Part shown: positions 38,971-47,179 of the stretch, in pieces
Position numbering within the stretch: position 1 is the first letter of the stretch
Layout: each line of letters opens with the position of its first letter
Assembly: GCA_938028725.1 (NCBI GenBank)
Contig: CALIMH010000012.1
Span: 1 to 64,000, forward strand
Direction of reading: 5' to 3'
Source: an uncultured Anaerolineae bacterium
GTDB taxonomy: Bacteria > Chloroflexota > Anaerolineae > J036 > Brachytrichaceae
DNA length: 64,000 nucleotides
Program-made: the position numbers and the translations under genes
The notes under the pieces: model-generated
Told to the model about the DNA's origin: nothing
Database searches by the model: none
The model's input: only the letters and a program-made list of their open reading frames with translations

Positions 38971-40794
38971 ATGCCAAGACAAAAGATCAAGCCCACGTTG
39001 CCCCCGCGCTCTGAGATCCCGCTTGAATACACCTGGGACTTGGAGAGCCTATATCCCAACTTGGAGGAGTGGGAGGCCGCGTTCCGCCGCCTTGAGTCAC
39101 AACTGGACCTGTTGCAGTCCTATAAAGGTCGGCTGACCGAATCGCCCGCCGGGTTGTTGGCCTTTTTAAGGTTGCGCGATCAGCTCGAGGCGGAGCTGCA
39201 CAAAATTTGGAATCATGCCGAGCGCGCCTTCGACGTGGACACCACTAACCAGACCAATGCAGCGCGTGTGGCCCGCACGCAGAGCCTCTGGGCCCGTTAT
39301 GCTGCCGCGACTGCGTTCGCGCGGCCAGAGCTGTTGACTCTCGACGCTGACCAGGTCGCCCAATTCGTTGCCGCTGAATCGGGGCTGGAAGTGTATCGGC
39401 ACTTCTTCGACGACTTGCTGCGCATGAAGCCGCACGTCCGCTCTGCCGAGGTGGAGGAGGTGGTGGCCCAGGCTAGCACGGTAACCAGCGCGCCGGCGAA
39501 CATCTACGCCATGCTCGCCAACGCGGATCTGCGCTTTGCTGATGCGCGCGACAGCAAGCGCCGCAAGCATACCGTCGCGCAGAGCACGATGGATGAGCTG
39601 CTCAGCAGCCCCGACCGCGCCCTGCGCAAGAGCGCGTGGGAGAGCTACGCCGACGGCTTCTTGAGCATGAAGAACACCTTCGCAGAGGTGATGGCAGCGA
39701 AGGTAAAAGCGTCGGTGTGGCGCGCGCGCGCGGCGCGCTTCAACAGCGTGTTGGAGGCGTCGTTGGCACCGGCCAACCTGACGCCAGCGGTCTATCACAA
39801 CGTGATAGATGCGTGCAATCGCCATCTGCCGATCTGGCATCGTTACTGGGACGTGCGCCGTCGGGCCCTGAAGCTCGACAAGATGGAAGTGTGCGACATC
39901 TTCGCGCCTCTAGCCCCACCGCCGCGTGTCACCTGGCAGCAGGCGGTGCGGTGGTTGGTAGAGGGGTTGCGCCCGCTGGGCGAGTCCTACGTCGCAGACG
40001 TGCAGGCCGGCCTCACCACAGAGCGCTGGGTGGATGTGTTGCCGAACATCGGCAAGCGCGATGGCGCTTACTCCAGCGGCGGCTATGGCATGAAGCCTTT
40101 CATCTTCATGAGCTACAGCGAGCAAGGGCTTGGCAGCTTGAGCACGCTCGCCCATGAAGTGGGCCACTCGATGCACACCTTGCTGAGCTGCCGCCACCAG
40201 CCCTACGTGTATTCCTCCTACTCCACCTTCGTCGCAGAGGTCGCTTCCAACTTCAACCAAGCGCTATTGCGAGCACACTTGCTCAACCTTGGGCTGGGCA
40301 AGGATTTTGAGATCGCTGTCGTTCAAGAGGCGATGGATAACTTCCACCGCTACCTCTTCCTCATGCCCATCCTCTCCCAGTTCGAGCACTGGATGCACAC
40401 AACGATTGAAAACGGCGGCGCGCTCACCGCCGACATGATGAGCGAGAAGATGGTGGAACTGTTCCGCCGAGGCTATGGCGACGCCGTGCAGCTCGACGAG
40501 CCGCGTGTGGGCGTCACGTGGATGCAATTCGTGCACTTTTACGCAGACTACTACGTGTGGCAATATGCCTCCGGCATCAGCGCCGCCAACGCGCTGGCCG
40601 ATCAGGTGCTCCAGGACCGCAGCGGCGAAGCTGCAAACGCCTTTTTGCGCTTCTTGAGCAGTGGCAGCTCGCGCTATCCGCTGGAGTTGCTGGCCGAAGC
40701 CGGCGTGGATATGACCCGCCCAGAGCCGCTAGAGCGCGCCTTCCAAGTGTTGGAGCGCTTTGTGGAGCGCTTCGAGCGCCTCACCATCGGGTGA
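38971..40794 (+). CDS. pepF: Oligoendopeptidase F (M3B family)
   Basis: A 607-residue zinc metallopeptidase. The metal-binding motif HEVGHSMHTLLS is near residue 395, with the third ligand Glu in FVAEVASNFNQALL. The N-terminal segment PLEYTWDLESLYPNLEEWE is typical of the family, as is RKSAWESYADGFL. It cleaves short cytoplasmic peptides. The ATG at 38971 is 11 nt after a TATACT (-10), and no Shine-Dalgarno sequence is present, so the mRNA may be leaderless or nearly so. Confidence 0.95.
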   Translation: MPRQKIKPTLPPRSEIPLEYTWDLESLYPNLEEWEAAFRRLESQLDLLQSYKGRLTESPAGLLAFLRLRDQLEAELHKIWNHAERAFDVDTTNQTNAARVARTQSLWARYAAATAFARPELLTLDADQVAQFVAAESGLEVYRHFFDDLLRMKPHVRSAEVEEVVAQASTVTSAPANIYAMLANADLRFADARDSKRRKHTVAQSTMDELLSSPDRALRKSAWESYADGFLSMKNTFAEVMAAKVKASVWRARAARFNSVLEASLAPANLTPAVYHNVIDACNRHLPIWHRYWDVRRRALKLDKMEVCDIFAPLAPPPRVTWQQAVRWLVEGLRPLGESYVADVQAGLTTERWVDVLPNIGKRDGAYSSGGYGMKPFIFMSYSEQGLGSLSTLAHEVGHSMHTLLSCRHQPYVYSSYSTFVAEVASNFNQALLRAHLLNLGLGKDFEIAVVQEAMDNFHRYLFLMPILSQFEHWMHTTIENGGALTADMMSEKMVELFRRGYGDAVQLDEPRVGVTWMQFVHFYADYYVWQYASGISAANALADQVLQDRSGEAANAFLRFLSSGSSRYPLELLAEAGVDMTRPEPLERAFQVLERFVERFERLTIG

Positions 40795-40861
40795 GCGCCA
40801 TCAGCACGGCGCGCCTCATGCGCGGCCTGTAGCGTCTGGACAAAACCAATACAATCTGGTC

Positions 40862-41641
40862 GTGTGGAGCTGGAGGGGTGTAGGGCGCGCGTGGCTGGCA
40901 GTCAGTCTGGCCGTGAGCGGCTGCACGCTGCTACCAAGCCGCCAAGCAATGCAGCCGGTGGTCGCTTTTGTGACGCCACCAGAAGGGGCACAGTTCGAGC
41001 TGGGTGAGGTGGTGCATTTCACCATCGCAGCCGTAGCCAGCGCTGGCGTGGCGCGCGTGGAGCTGCTGGACGACGGCAACGTAGTGGCTGCCCAGCCCAA
41101 CCCCAATCAATCCCCCACGTTCTCTGCGCGCATCGCCTACATGCCGAATCGGACAGGTCGGGTCACTTTCCAAGCGGTGGCCGTGGACGCTAACGGCCGC
41201 AGCAGCGAGCCGGCCGTGCTGAACATTGTCTACGGCGCGTCTGCCACACCTACGCCTGCGCCACCGCCGCCGGGTGCTCACTCCTCTGTCACACCAGGCG
41301 AGAGCGGCTGCCGTCTTGCTGCGCTGTTCTTGCAAGATGTGACCGTGCCGGATGGCACGGTGATGCGGGCCGGCACAGTGTTCACCAAAACCTGGCGTAT
41401 GCGCAACGTCAGCTCCTGCGATTGGGGGGAAGGTTACACCCTCGCGCATGAATCTGACACGGTGCTGGGCAGTGTGCGCAGCGTGGCAGTGAACCCTACG
41501 CCGAGCAATGCCAACGTGGATATTAGCGTGCCGATGGTGGCGCCGCGCCAACCAGGGGTATACACCAGCACGTGGCGACTGAAAGACCCGAGCGGCCAAT
41601 GGTTTGGCAATCGGGTCTTCGTGGTGATCCGCGTGCCGTGA
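40862..41641 (+). CDS. Lipoprotein with an NBR1-like (four-tryptophan, FW) domain
   Basis: A 259-residue predicted lipoprotein. A signal peptide ends in LAVSGC. Residues about 40-130 form an Ig-like domain (VAFVTPPEGAQFELGEVV, GRVTFQAVAVDANGRSS). A Thr/Pro linker (ATPTPAPPPP) leads to a second domain of about 105 residues with the FW signature: four tryptophans in TKTWRMRN, SCDWGEGYTL, STWRLKD and GQWFGN. This Ig-like fold is known from the eukaryotic autophagy receptor NBR1 and occurs in some bacteria. GTG at 40862 sits six nucleotides after a TACAAT, so the transcript may be leaderless. Binding partner unknown. Confidence 0.78.
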   Translation: MWSWRGVGRAWLAVSLAVSGCTLLPSRQAMQPVVAFVTPPEGAQFELGEVVHFTIAAVASAGVARVELLDDGNVVAAQPNPNQSPTFSARIAYMPNRTGRVTFQAVAVDANGRSSEPAVLNIVYGASATPTPAPPPPGAHSSVTPGESGCRLAALFLQDVTVPDGTVMRAGTVFTKTWRMRNVSSCDWGEGYTLAHESDTVLGSVRSVAVNPTPSNANVDISVPMVAPRQPGVYTSTWRLKDPSGQWFGNRVFVVIRVP

Positions 41642-41693: not shown

Positions 41694-41699
41694 TATAAT
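41694..41699 (+). promoter_or_regulatory. -10 box of a leaderless moxR transcript
   Basis: Consensus TATAAT seven nucleotides before the ATG at 41707. No -35 resembling TTGACA at 16-18 nt upstream. Transcription would start at or next to the initiation codon. Confidence 0.55.
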
Positions 41700-41706
41700 T
41701 TGAGTG

Positions 41707-42702
41707 ATGTCAAACAGCTCGGTCAGCCCAGAGCAGTTTATGCACATTGCGCACGCCGTGGAGCAAGAGGTGTGCAAAGTGATTATCGGCCAGCGCGATG
41801 TGATCCGACACACGCTGATCGCGATCTTGAGTGGCGGTCATGTGTTACTGGAAGGTGTGCCGGGACTGGGCAAGACGAGCCTGGTGCGCGCTTTCGCCGA
41901 CACGTTGGAGCTGCGCTTCGCCCGCATTCAGTTCACACCTGACCTCATGCCGGCGGACATCGTCGGCACGGATATTTTGGAAGAGCAAGAGGGCGGCAAG
42001 CGCGCCTTCCGCTTCCAGCCGGGCCCTGTCTTCGCCAACTTGGTGCTGGCCGATGAGATCAACCGCGCCACACCAAAGACGCAATCGGCCCTGCTTGAGG
42101 CCATGCAAGAGCGCACCGTGAGCGTGCTGGGGCGCACCTACGCGGCTAGTAAGCCGTTCTTCGTGATGGCTACCCAAAACCCTATCGAGATGGAGGGCAC
42201 CTATCCGCTGCCAGAGGCGCAGCTTGACCGCTTCATGTTCAAGCTGGATGTGGCTTTCCCAAAGCTCGATGAGCTAACCCAGATCGTCGAGGCAACTACA
42301 GGCGACCGATCGGCGCGCGCGAACAAGGTGACCGACGGCAAAACGCTGCTTGCGCTGAGCCAATTTGTCCGCCAGGTGCCGGCGGCCTCGCATGTGGCAC
42401 GCTACGCTGCTGCCCTCGTGGCCGCTTCGCACCCTGACAGCGAGTTAGCACCAGAGACCGTGCGCCGCTACGTGCGCTACGGCGCAAGCCCACGTGGTGC
42501 ACAAGCCTTGCTGCTGGGGGCGCGCGCGCTAGCGTTGCTGGAAGGTCGCTTTAACGTTGCGATTGAGGATGTGAAGGCGCTGGCGCCTGCTGCGCTGCGC
42601 CATCGTGTGTTGATCAACTTTGAAGGCCAGGCTGATGGCGTGCGTCCAGACAAAGTCATTGCGGATCTGATCGCCCACGTGAAGCCGGTTCCCGAAATCT
42701 GA
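41707..42702 (+). CDS. MoxR-family AAA+ ATPase
   Basis: A 331-residue MoxR ATPase. Walker A is EGVPGLGKTSL, Walker B is LVLADEINRATPKTQ, sensor 1 is FFVMATQNPIEMEG and the sensor 2 helical bundle carries GASPRGAQALLLGARALAL. MoxR proteins act as chaperones that load cofactors or assemble complexes with a VWA or DUF58 partner usually encoded next door. No such partner is present, since the next gene is rlmN. Start chosen at the second of two adjacent initiation codons. Confidence 0.93.
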   Translation: MSNSSVSPEQFMHIAHAVEQEVCKVIIGQRDVIRHTLIAILSGGHVLLEGVPGLGKTSLVRAFADTLELRFARIQFTPDLMPADIVGTDILEEQEGGKRAFRFQPGPVFANLVLADEINRATPKTQSALLEAMQERTVSVLGRTYAASKPFFVMATQNPIEMEGTYPLPEAQLDRFMFKLDVAFPKLDELTQIVEATTGDRSARANKVTDGKTLLALSQFVRQVPAASHVARYAAALVAASHPDSELAPETVRRYVRYGASPRGAQALLLGARALALLEGRFNVAIEDVKALAPAALRHRVLINFEGQADGVRPDKVIADLIAHVKPVPEI

Positions 42703-44133: not shown

Positions 44134-44529
44134 ATGCGTGAGATTGCCAAGCCCGCCCTCCCCAAAGAGCGCTCGCAGGCAGCAGTGCCAGGTGAGATCA
44201 CCATCGCACCACGCGTTGTCTTCAACCAGGTCTTGCACGCTGCGTTGGCCACATACGGCGTGGTGGGGATCGCCTCGCGCTACACTGGCGCCGATTGCAC
44301 AGACACTGACCCGCGCCGCGGCATTCGGATCGCCCTCTCGCTGCATCCCGACCGCACGCATCACGTCTCAGTGGAAATTCACACCATCATGGAGTATGGC
44401 GTGCGGGTGCAAGCTGTGGCCAAGAGCTTGGACGAGCAAATCCGCTATGCCGTGCATCGCAGCACAGGCTACGTGGTGGACTCCATCGCAGTGTTTGTAG
44501 ATGCGCTGCGAGTCACCTATGTGGACTGA
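44134..44529 (+). CDS. Asp23/Gls24-family protein
   Basis: A 131-residue protein of the Asp23/Gls24 (DUF322) family. Conserved segments include PGEITIAPRVVFNQVLHAAL, GVVGIASRY, IRIALSLHP and the hydrophobic VSVEIHTIMEYGVRVQAVAK. In Gram-positive bacteria the protein is membrane-associated and often precedes fakA, as here. The role is linked to envelope stress; mechanism unknown. It has a tail DALRVTYVD common to the family. Confidence 0.88.
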   Translation: MREIAKPALPKERSQAAVPGEITIAPRVVFNQVLHAALATYGVVGIASRYTGADCTDTDPRRGIRIALSLHPDRTHHVSVEIHTIMEYGVRVQAVAKSLDEQIRYAVHRSTGYVVDSIAVFVDALRVTYVD

Positions 44530-44564
44530 CCAGCGTGTTGGATGAACCCAGGAGCGACGAACCA

Positions 44565-46283
44565 ATGAACAACGATAGCTCGGTGGATATGCGAGAAGGC
44601 ACGGGCCGCTCTCAACCCGAGGCGAGTGGAGCAGAAGGCGCGCCAGCGGTGCGGCTCACATTAGATGGCCGTCGGTTTAAAGAGCTGGTGCGCGCGGCGT
44701 ATCTGTGGCTTCGCCAGCAAGAGGAGAAGGTCAATAGCTACAACGTCTATCCTGTGCCGGATGGCGACACCGGCACTAACATGATGCACACCATGCGAGC
44801 TGCCTGGGAAGCAATTGCTAACTTGGATGAACCGTCCATCGGCGTAGTGGCGCGCTATGTGTCTAGCGGTGCGCTGCGCGGTTCGCGCGGCAACTCTGGC
44901 ATCATCCTCTCGCAATTGTGGCGAGGCTTTGCACGCTCCTTAGATGGCAAAGCGATCGGTGACGCCCAGGACATTGTCGCTGCACTGAAGGAAGCCGCGC
45001 GCACTGCCTATGCGGGCGTTGGCAGCCCTGTCGAAGGCACGATGTTGACAGTGGCGCGCGAGGTGGCCGAGGCCGTTGAACATGCAGCTCAACACACCCA
45101 TGACTTGCGGCGGTTGTTGCAGGTGGCGCGTGAGGCCGCCTACGACTCTGTGCAGCGCACTCCCAACCTCCTTAAAATCCTGCGAGAGGCCGGCGTGGTG
45201 GACTCCGGCGGGTTTGGGTTGTATGTCATTTACGACGGGATGTGGCGGTTGATCAACGATTTGCCAGTGAGCGAAGAGCCGAGCGCTGCATCGCGCCCGG
45301 CTATATCGGCTCAGGCACAGCTCCAGCGCGAGGAAGGATGGGGCTACGACGTGCAGTATTTGCTCTACGCGAGGCCGGGCCGACCGCTTGATGTGGACAA
45401 AATCCGCGCCGACATTGAAGCGATGGGCGAGTGCCCGCTGGTGATGGGCGATGCCACGATGGTGAAGGTGCATGTGCATGTGCCTGATCCCGGTGTGCCG
45501 ATCAGTTATGGCGCTGCGCTTGGCTCGCTGCGCGATGTAGTCATCGAGGACATGCAGGCGCAGTCCGAAGCCTTTGTCCTACAGCCAATCGGCGAGAGCA
45601 GTGCGCCATCCGAGGCGGCGTTGCCCGAAGTGGAGGTGGCAATGATCGCAGTCGCCTCCGGTGTAGGCCTGGTGCGCATCTTTCAAGAGCTGGGCGCTCG
45701 CGTGGTGGAAGGAGGCCAGACCATGAACCCCAGCGTCGAGGATTTGCTCAACGCGATCGAGCAGGCTAGGGCGCGCAGTGTGTTGCTCCTGCCGAACAAC
45801 AGCAATATCGTCATGACTGCGGAGCAGGCAGCCCGGCTGAGCAGCGTGCCGGCCTGGGTAGTGCCCACCCGCACCGTCCCCCAAGGCGTGGGCGCCGCTA
45901 TTGCGTTCCGCCCAGACCTGGACGCCCAGACAAACCTGGCCATCATGCAGCAAGCCGCTGCCGCTGTAGTCACAGCCGAAGTCACCACTTCCACGCGAGA
46001 TGTGACCCTGGACGGCGTTCCGGTGCAAGCTGGTCAAGTGATCGGCTTGGTGAACGATCGCCTAAAAGTGGCGGGCGACGAACTGGCCGCGGTGCTGTTG
46101 CAAACGCTTGAAGCCGCCGGCGCTGATCAACACGAGTTGATCTCGATCTACTACGGCAACGGCCTATCGGCCGCCGAGGTAGAGGCCACCGCTGCGCAGG
46201 TGCGCCAGCGCTTCCCCGCTCAACAAGTGGATGTGATCGCCGGCGGTCAACCGCACTACTACTTCATCGTCGGCATTGAGTGA
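44565..46283 (+). CDS. fakA: Fatty acid kinase catalytic subunit FakA
   Basis: A 572-residue protein of the FakA/YloV family. The N-terminal DAK (Dha kinase-L) domain contains NSYNVYPVPDGDTGTNMMH and SGALRGSRGNSGIILSQLWRG, which bind ATP and metal, and AGVVDSGGFGLYVIYDG. The middle and C-terminal domains match the family (LLLPNNSNIVMTAEQAARL). FakA phosphorylates fatty acids bound to FakB for entry into phospholipid synthesis. The ATG at 44565 follows AGGAG at 44550-44554. The next gene encodes a DegV-type FakB. Confidence 0.93.
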   Translation: MNNDSSVDMREGTGRSQPEASGAEGAPAVRLTLDGRRFKELVRAAYLWLRQQEEKVNSYNVYPVPDGDTGTNMMHTMRAAWEAIANLDEPSIGVVARYVSSGALRGSRGNSGIILSQLWRGFARSLDGKAIGDAQDIVAALKEAARTAYAGVGSPVEGTMLTVAREVAEAVEHAAQHTHDLRRLLQVAREAAYDSVQRTPNLLKILREAGVVDSGGFGLYVIYDGMWRLINDLPVSEEPSAASRPAISAQAQLQREEGWGYDVQYLLYARPGRPLDVDKIRADIEAMGECPLVMGDATMVKVHVHVPDPGVPISYGAALGSLRDVVIEDMQAQSEAFVLQPIGESSAPSEAALPEVEVAMIAVASGVGLVRIFQELGARVVEGGQTMNPSVEDLLNAIEQARARSVLLLPNNSNIVMTAEQAARLSSVPAWVVPTRTVPQGVGAAIAFRPDLDAQTNLAIMQQAAAAVVTAEVTTSTRDVTLDGVPVQAGQVIGLVNDRLKVAGDELAAVLLQTLEAAGADQHELISIYYGNGLSAAEVEATAAQVRQRFPAQQVDVIAGGQPHYYFIVGIE

Positions 46284-46291
46284 GATTTGCC

Positions 46292-47179
46292 ATGCCCTCC
46301 AGGCGGCCTGTTTGCATTGTCACAGACAGCGCAGCGCGTTTGCCGCTGAGTTGGACAAGTCAATATCCGTTGGTGATCTTGCCCCATCTCGTCTCCTTCG
46401 ACGCTAAGCACTGGCTGCGTGAAGATGTGGACCTCAACGAGCATGAGCTGGCCTGCTGGCTCAGGCAGACTCCCACGCCGTTCACAGTGCGAGCGCCGTC
46501 GGTGGAGCAATTTATCGAGACATACCAGGCGTTGGACAAACAGCACGTGGACGTGCTCTCCTTGCATGTCTCCGCTGCGCTCAGCGAGGCCATCGCCAAC
46601 GCGCAGCAAGCGCGGGCGCGCTTTTTGGGCAGCTGCAACATCCACATCTTCGACTCCGGCACAGCAGCGCTGGGCCTGCACATGATGGTGCGCGATGCGC
46701 TGCGCCTGCTCGAATCAGGTTGTACGTTGGACGAGGTGGTGACCAAGCTGCGCTTTTTGCGCCAAACTGCCTATGGCTACTTCGTGAGTGACGAGCTGTT
46801 GTGGCTCAAGCGAAGTGGCCGCTTGCGCCCAAGCCAGGCTGTGATCAGCATGATGATGGGCATCATCCCTTGCCTCACGTTCGAGCAGGGCGATCTGGTG
46901 GCTGTGGAAAAGGTGCGTCACATGGAGCAAGCCATCGAAAAGGTCGCTGAGTTCGCTGTGGAGTTTGACTCGAACGCTTACTGCGTGCTCACGCAACTGT
47001 GTCCCACTGCGAATCGGCTGCCGCAGATCACCAAATTGGCCAACGCGCTCAACGCCTTCTCACCTGCGTTCAAGCGCGATATGCCGGTCTGGTCCTGCGG
47101 CGTGACGCTGGGGCGCTTGCTAGGGCCGCGCGGCTTCGGGTTTATGGCTTACGAAGGGGATGTCGCTAAGGTGGCTTAG
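46292..47179 (+). CDS. DegV-family fatty acid-binding protein (FakB)
   Basis: A 295-residue DegV protein. The N-terminus RPVCIVTDSAARLP and the segment TPFTVRAPSVEQFIETYQAL match the lipid-binding fold, with DSGTAALGLHMMVRDAL for the second domain. FakB proteins deliver an exogenous fatty acid to FakA. The frame extends upstream to a GTG that overlaps the fakA stop, but ATG 46292 gives the canonical start. SGRLRPSQAVISMMMGIIPC is the usual C-terminal DegV pocket motif. Confidence 0.93.
   Translation: MPSRRPVCIVTDSAARLPLSWTSQYPLVILPHLVSFDAKHWLREDVDLNEHELACWLRQTPTPFTVRAPSVEQFIETYQALDKQHVDVLSLHVSAALSEAIANAQQARARFLGSCNIHIFDSGTAALGLHMMVRDALRLLESGCTLDEVVTKLRFLRQTAYGYFVSDELLWLKRSGRLRPSQAVISMMMGIIPCLTFEQGDLVAVEKVRHMEQAIEKVAEFAVEFDSNAYCVLTQLCPTANRLPQITKLANALNAFSPAFKRDMPVWSCGVTLGRLLGPRGFGFMAYEGDVAKVA

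Follow-up and report, generated by a model that had tools for sequence, protein, structure and literature searches.

The gene at positions 40862..41641 of the window, by which we mean the whole 64,000-nucleotide stretch of DNA analyzed here, raises the question of whether a bacterial lipoprotein carries the four-tryptophan (FW) domain of the autophagy receptor NBR1 and, if so, what such a domain might do outside the cell. The original prediction was of a surface lipoprotein with a separate Ig-like domain and an FW domain retaining all four tryptophans; it proposed as checks a Pfam NBR1-domain profile search and a structure prediction compared with the NBR1 FW domain, a dissimilar fold being what would speak against it, and it was hoped that the protein would bear on the origin of the domain. 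FW domains of bacteria, with Chloroflexi among them, have been in print since 2012, and transmembrane forms are likewise published (PMC3357945 and PMC9582228, in the accessible text); NCBI annotation already names such proteins 'NBR1-Ig-like'.

Gene, domains, and fold of the lipoprotein

The ORF (40862..41641, on the forward strand, as are its parts, the box before it, and the MoxR gene given below) is genuine: it is open, starts with GTG, and encodes 259 aa, as judged from its translation, the upstream -10-like boxes, and the ortholog alignment. A TACAAT box (40850..40855) lies 6 nt before the GTG, where a leaderless transcript is possible, and -10-like boxes (TACAAT, TATAAT, and similar) occur ∼5–12 nt 5' of the starts of the lipoprotein gene, of the MoxR gene that follows it, and of relatives, seven of which (L078–L082, L088, and L090) were inspected by eye and without statistics. 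Boxes so close to the starts, judged in this way, suggest leaderless transcripts and, together with the ortholog alignment, support the GTG start. The lipoprotein signal peptide (40862..40924) has the lipobox VSGC, which ends at Cys21 (codon 40922–40924), a residue that is near-invariant in the alignment of 24 relatives; lipidation at Cys21 is predicted from this motif, and the lipobox taken alone would place the protein at the surface. The Ig-like domain (aa 28–126, 40943..41239) matches Pfam Big_7 at aa 32–84 (E 3.1e-7, 31.4 bits against a cut-off of 24.1) and, in the structural model described below, is best fitted by CelAly B1 (9kvu, Z 14.0) and a CbhA module (3pe9, Z 13.7; VIA-align 2), so that both the lipoprotein and the separate Ig-like domain of the original prediction are borne out.

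The FW domain itself (aa 150–259, 41309..41638) matches PF16158 (N_BRCA1_IG) at aa 161–258 with an E value of 2.2e-25 and 89.7 bits against a cut-off of 28, which is far beyond chance. A PDB sequence search recovered ILRUN (6vhi, 1.5e-13), NBR1 (4ole, 4e-12), and the Ams1-Nbr1 complex 7vqo. An AlphaFold2 model built from 44 aligned sequences (mean pLDDT 89.7, pTM 0.52) has two domains joined by a linker, and its top Foldseek match was 6vhi (E 4.5e-9, TM 0.93 by target length). The three best structural matches of the FW model upon superposition (VIA-align 2) were ILRUN 6vhi (Z 18.2, rmsd 1.1 over 108 residues), NBR1 4ole_C (Z 15.9), and the Ams1-bound Nbr1 of 7vqo (Z 15.5), all of them FW domains; the fold is thus like that of NBR1 FW, and the assignment to the NBR1 type stands. 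No NCBIfam profile scored above cut-off for the 259-aa protein, there was no enzyme domain among its Pfam matches, and PB1, ZZ, and UBA were absent from these at E values up to 1, so that the protein is not an NBR1. The product of this gene is almost certainly an FW-domain lipoprotein. It resembles the FW domains of human ILRUN and NBR1 in fold and in detectable sequence kinship, and has in common with them three tryptophans, F156, D159, and an acidic residue at position 164, but differs from both in being of an exported and predicted lipid-anchored type, in having Phe at the fourth tryptophan position, and in carrying a cysteine pair, C150–C186, found in neither NBR1 nor ILRUN.

Tryptophans and a cysteine pair

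The claim that all four FW tryptophans are present did not survive alignment. Conservation was assessed in FW domains from the best-matching related loci. This sample is biased, its loci coming almost entirely from Chloroflexota, and the copy of the window may itself be among them. Of the 216 domain matches, 215 were long enough, and merging identical ones left 198 distinct domains. Three canonical tryptophans are found in the window protein, namely Trp178 (41393..41395; 197/198 domains), which corresponds to W672 on the pocket floor of Chaetomium Nbr1, Trp188 (41423..41425; 198/198), and Trp238 (41573..41575; 191/198), and at the fourth canonical position, occupied in NBR1 by the Trp of RVW and in Chaetomium Nbr1 by the pocket wall residue W763, the protein has Phe253 (41618..41620). 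Trp247 (41600..41602), probably the residue originally counted as the fourth, lies six residues from that position, is found in 3/24 relatives, and aligns with Q in NBR1 and Y in ILRUN. Marchbank et al. 2012 (PMC3357945), in the text available, describe the four tryptophans as rarely replaced and define the family by a Trp in β2, in the β2–β3 linker, and in β5, together with a β6 Trp or, rarely, another aromatic residue. The window protein, with W178, W188, W238, and F253, falls within this definition, although a strict count of four canonical tryptophans fails. The 24 aligned relatives have F (14) or Y (10) at position 253 and never W (by eye), and among the 198 distinct domains the fourth position is W in 67, Y in 49, F in 40, T in 20, and S in 9, with all four canonical tryptophans in 60 only; in this Chloroflexota sample, the fourth Trp is replaced more often than kept.

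The only cysteines of the window protein are at positions 21, 150, and 186. Both Cys150 (41309..41311) and Cys186 (41417..41419), the two halves of a predicted disulfide, are present in 24/24 relatives, and they co-occur in the larger sample, where 159/198 domains have both, 38/198 neither, and 1/198 a single one (Fisher p 5e-40, kinship being ignored). Of 21,785 residue pairs tested, this one shows the strongest association (phi 0.984), and the best unrelated pair reaches 0.62. The pair was scored as any Cys up to 12 residues before F156 plus a Cys two positions ahead of the second canonical Trp, because the N-terminal alignment columns are misaligned and fixed-column scoring undercounts pairs; the first Cys lies 5 or 6 residues from F156 in 156/160 cases. 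C150 and C186 are therefore predicted, with high probability, to form a structural disulfide.

The pair also follows signs of export. A crude hydrophobicity test divided 154 FW ORFs according to whether a hydrophobic segment lies upstream of FW. The ORFs that have such a segment comprise 130 with the pair, 4 without, and 1 mixed, and those lacking it comprise 11 without the pair and 8 with it. Five of the latter eight (L037, L038, L039, L041, and L042) are lipoproteins with a short hydrophobic signal, and the other three are ambiguous (L014 and the truncated ORFs L052 and L022). Presence of the pair in most exported copies suggests that it is a stabilizing disulfide. On the tree of FW domains, a minimum of 7 changes is needed for the pair and of 4 for export, but there are just 1 to 4 independent contrasts; kinship thus confounds the comparison, and the link between export and the pair is suggestive, whereas the association of the two cysteines with each other is firm. 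Within this sample, the pair provides a simple sequence mark separating most exported FW domains from cytoplasmic-looking ones. Six cytoplasmic-looking proteins of ∼830–960 aa (L136, L156, L129, L107, L145, and L152) carry four or five tandem FW domains, and neither a signal segment nor the cysteine pair was found in these arrays. In L158, a Nonomuraea protein, the FW domain follows a transmembrane segment but is devoid of the pair, which counts against the link with export; two other cysteines in it might form a different bridge. The pair is also absent from a Gordonia example of the XRE-FW regulators, bacterial proteins in which, according to the available text of Marchbank et al. 2012 (PMC3357945), FW lies near the C terminus, as it does in the window protein, but which are DNA-binding proteins, unlike this lipoprotein.

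With respect to disulfide formation, two DsbA-like proteins of apparently exported type are encoded in the window's genome, the first anchored in the membrane and carrying CGYC, the second located in a lipoprotein and carrying CPAC; a VKOR was searched for in this genome and not found, which counts against the disulfide reading. In L161, a lipoprotein-like ORF of this genome (636 aa), the DsbA-like part bearing CPAC comes after a part that appears by eye to be cyclophilin-like, and its product is possibly an exported folding enzyme. A literature search, to which subscription papers were not open, found no disulfide in bacterial FW domains, and the cysteine pair may be a feature not described so far.

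A putative pocket, the gene neighborhood, and possible functions

A possible function is suggested by the FW domain of Chaetomium thermophilum Nbr1, the pocket of which (F651, D654, D658, W672, L762, and W763) takes the N-terminal Gly-Gly of Ams1, a mode of N terminus uptake that the accessible text of Zhang et al. 2022 (PMC9233695) proposes to be general. By profile alignment to 7vqo, the equivalents in the window protein are F156, D159, D164, W178, V252, and F253, so that the first four residues are kept, whereas L762 and W763 are replaced by V252 and F253; R743, which is needed for Ams1, aligns by eye with V233 and is thus not kept, a point against this function. D159 is conserved in 94% and D164 in 96% of the FW sample, and the full set (F/Y/W at 156, D/E at the acids, and W/F/Y at 253) is found in 148/198 domains. 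We propose that the lipid on Cys21 would tether the protein to the outer face of the membrane and that the Ig-like domain would act as a stalk spacing FW off the membrane. The C150–C186 disulfide would staple the start of FW to the loop before the second Trp, which may be an adaptation to the oxidizing cell exterior. The pocket, with F156 and F253 as its walls, W178 and V252 as its floor, and D159 and D164 near the amine, might then take up the free N-terminal residues of a partner protein. As a whole, this picture of a membrane-tethered, disulfide-stapled FW lipoprotein with an Ig stalk and an N terminus–binding module has somewhat less than an even chance of being right. On the pocket in particular, D159 and D164 are each kept in 28/29 domains that have Thr or Ser at 253; because the acids persist where the aromatic residue is lost, they may be structural rather than part of a ligand site, and for the same reason the reading of a partner's free N terminus by an NBR1-type pocket is tentative, with the balance leaning against it.

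The same persistence of the acids after loss of the aromatic wall speaks for another reading, in which exported FW domains would be cell wall– or polysaccharide-binding modules or spacers, like the CARDB, fn3, and Ig domains of secreted enzymes, and would not read N termini at all. The partner domains of FW in a Pfam scan of 101 of the 103 FW ORFs (L100 and L149 being left out for size) fit such a role, since besides FHA (2) and a single kinase they include Big_7 (26), CARDB (14), Peptidase_M23 (7), CAP (2), GH18 (2), and one each of CHAP, GH46, and GH5, and the Ig-like domain of the window protein is itself structurally nearest to modules of CelAly and of the cellulase CbhA. On the other hand, few residues of the FW domain are as well conserved as those of the pocket, which goes beyond what a spacer needs, the window protein has no Pfam enzyme domain of its own, and in the one FW complex considered here the ligand is a protein (PMC9233695, in the text available). 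We regard such a wall-binding, polysaccharide-binding, or spacing role as unlikely, though not remotely so.

The gene neighborhood offers another possibility. A gene for a MoxR-type AAA+ ATPase (41704..42702; Pfam AAA_3) adjoins the lipoprotein gene downstream on the same strand, a linkage that is partly conserved, being found in the window and in 6/16 fetched neighborhoods across four genera, including that of the window, and the two products might act jointly in the assembly of envelope proteins. However, MoxR is not beside the gene in the other 10/16 neighborhoods, the closest relatives among these, and the compartments differ, the ATPase being cytoplasmic and the lipoprotein exported. Each of the two genes has a -10-like box within ∼12 nt of its start, that of MoxR (region 41694–41704) being a TATAAT of its own 10 nt before the start, and with separate boxes a lipoprotein-MoxR operon is not established; a joint role is very improbable. 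The upstream M3 peptidase gene (38971–40794) was rejected as a functional partner, as it is beside the gene in 0/16 neighborhoods; elsewhere, the upstream neighbors are ordinary (an MFS transporter, a histone-deacetylase family protein, adenylosuccinate synthetase, and RecA). Further downstream, consecutive genes for Asp23, FakA-like (DAK2), and DegV family proteins (44134–47179) likely form a fatty acid kinase cluster.

There is equally little probability that the protein, with its two Ig-like domains, serves as a homophilic or matrix adhesin in the manner of the biofilm scaffold RbmA, structures of which are among the Foldseek matches spanning both domains and for which the suggestion of FW as a dimerization module in the 2012 text (PMC3357945) could be invoked, given that the match has an rmsd of ∼14 Å over some 250 columns and a TM of at most 0.32, limiting the common ground to a general two-domain Ig layout.

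Exported FW domains across the Chloroflexota

The domain is widespread in the phylum. PF16158 was detected in 116/400 sampled Chloroflexota genomes, 93 of them above cut-off, and in 0/14 control genomes. The window protein is matched in 42/60 relatives, with full-length matches at 53–64% in the nearest genera, and the named assemblies nearest to it belong to Thermoflexales and Candidatus Roseilinea. Most of the other Chloroflexota FW proteins, some of which carry M23, CHAP, CAP, or glycoside hydrolase domains, have the same exported, cysteine-paired type of FW; the window protein differs from them in being a small lipoprotein composed of Big_7 and FW only, and its genome in having one FW domain, whereas many Anaerolineae genomes have at least 11 scored PF16158 places. 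A plasmid search matched 5/72,556 records, two of them annotated as 'NBR1-Ig-like domain-containing protein', and a phage origin was rejected, with no match in the phage collection.

The hoped-for bearing on the origin of the FW domain was not obtained. The tree of 112 domains and 106 columns, based on a chosen subset of loci with one domain per ORF, has mostly unresolved forks, so that no claim is made on the origin of the eukaryotic domain, and an ancient age of the bacterial domains has been under discussion since 2012 (Marchbank et al., PMC3357945, in its accessible text). A broader proposal, which we consider rather doubtful, is that the Chloroflexota FW proteins constitute a large family of disulfide-stapled exported modules that would read N termini exposed on secreted or cleaved proteins, one of the smallest membrane-tethered members being this lipoprotein. 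If it were true, the eukaryotic autophagy receptor would be using an old prokaryotic reader of N termini. The general ligand of FW domains is a question of the autophagy field that exported bacterial FW domains could address; being small, exported, and predicted to be disulfide-bonded, they would be convenient for purification and for crystallization with peptide libraries, and would reveal whether N terminus recognition is the ancestral job of the FW domain.
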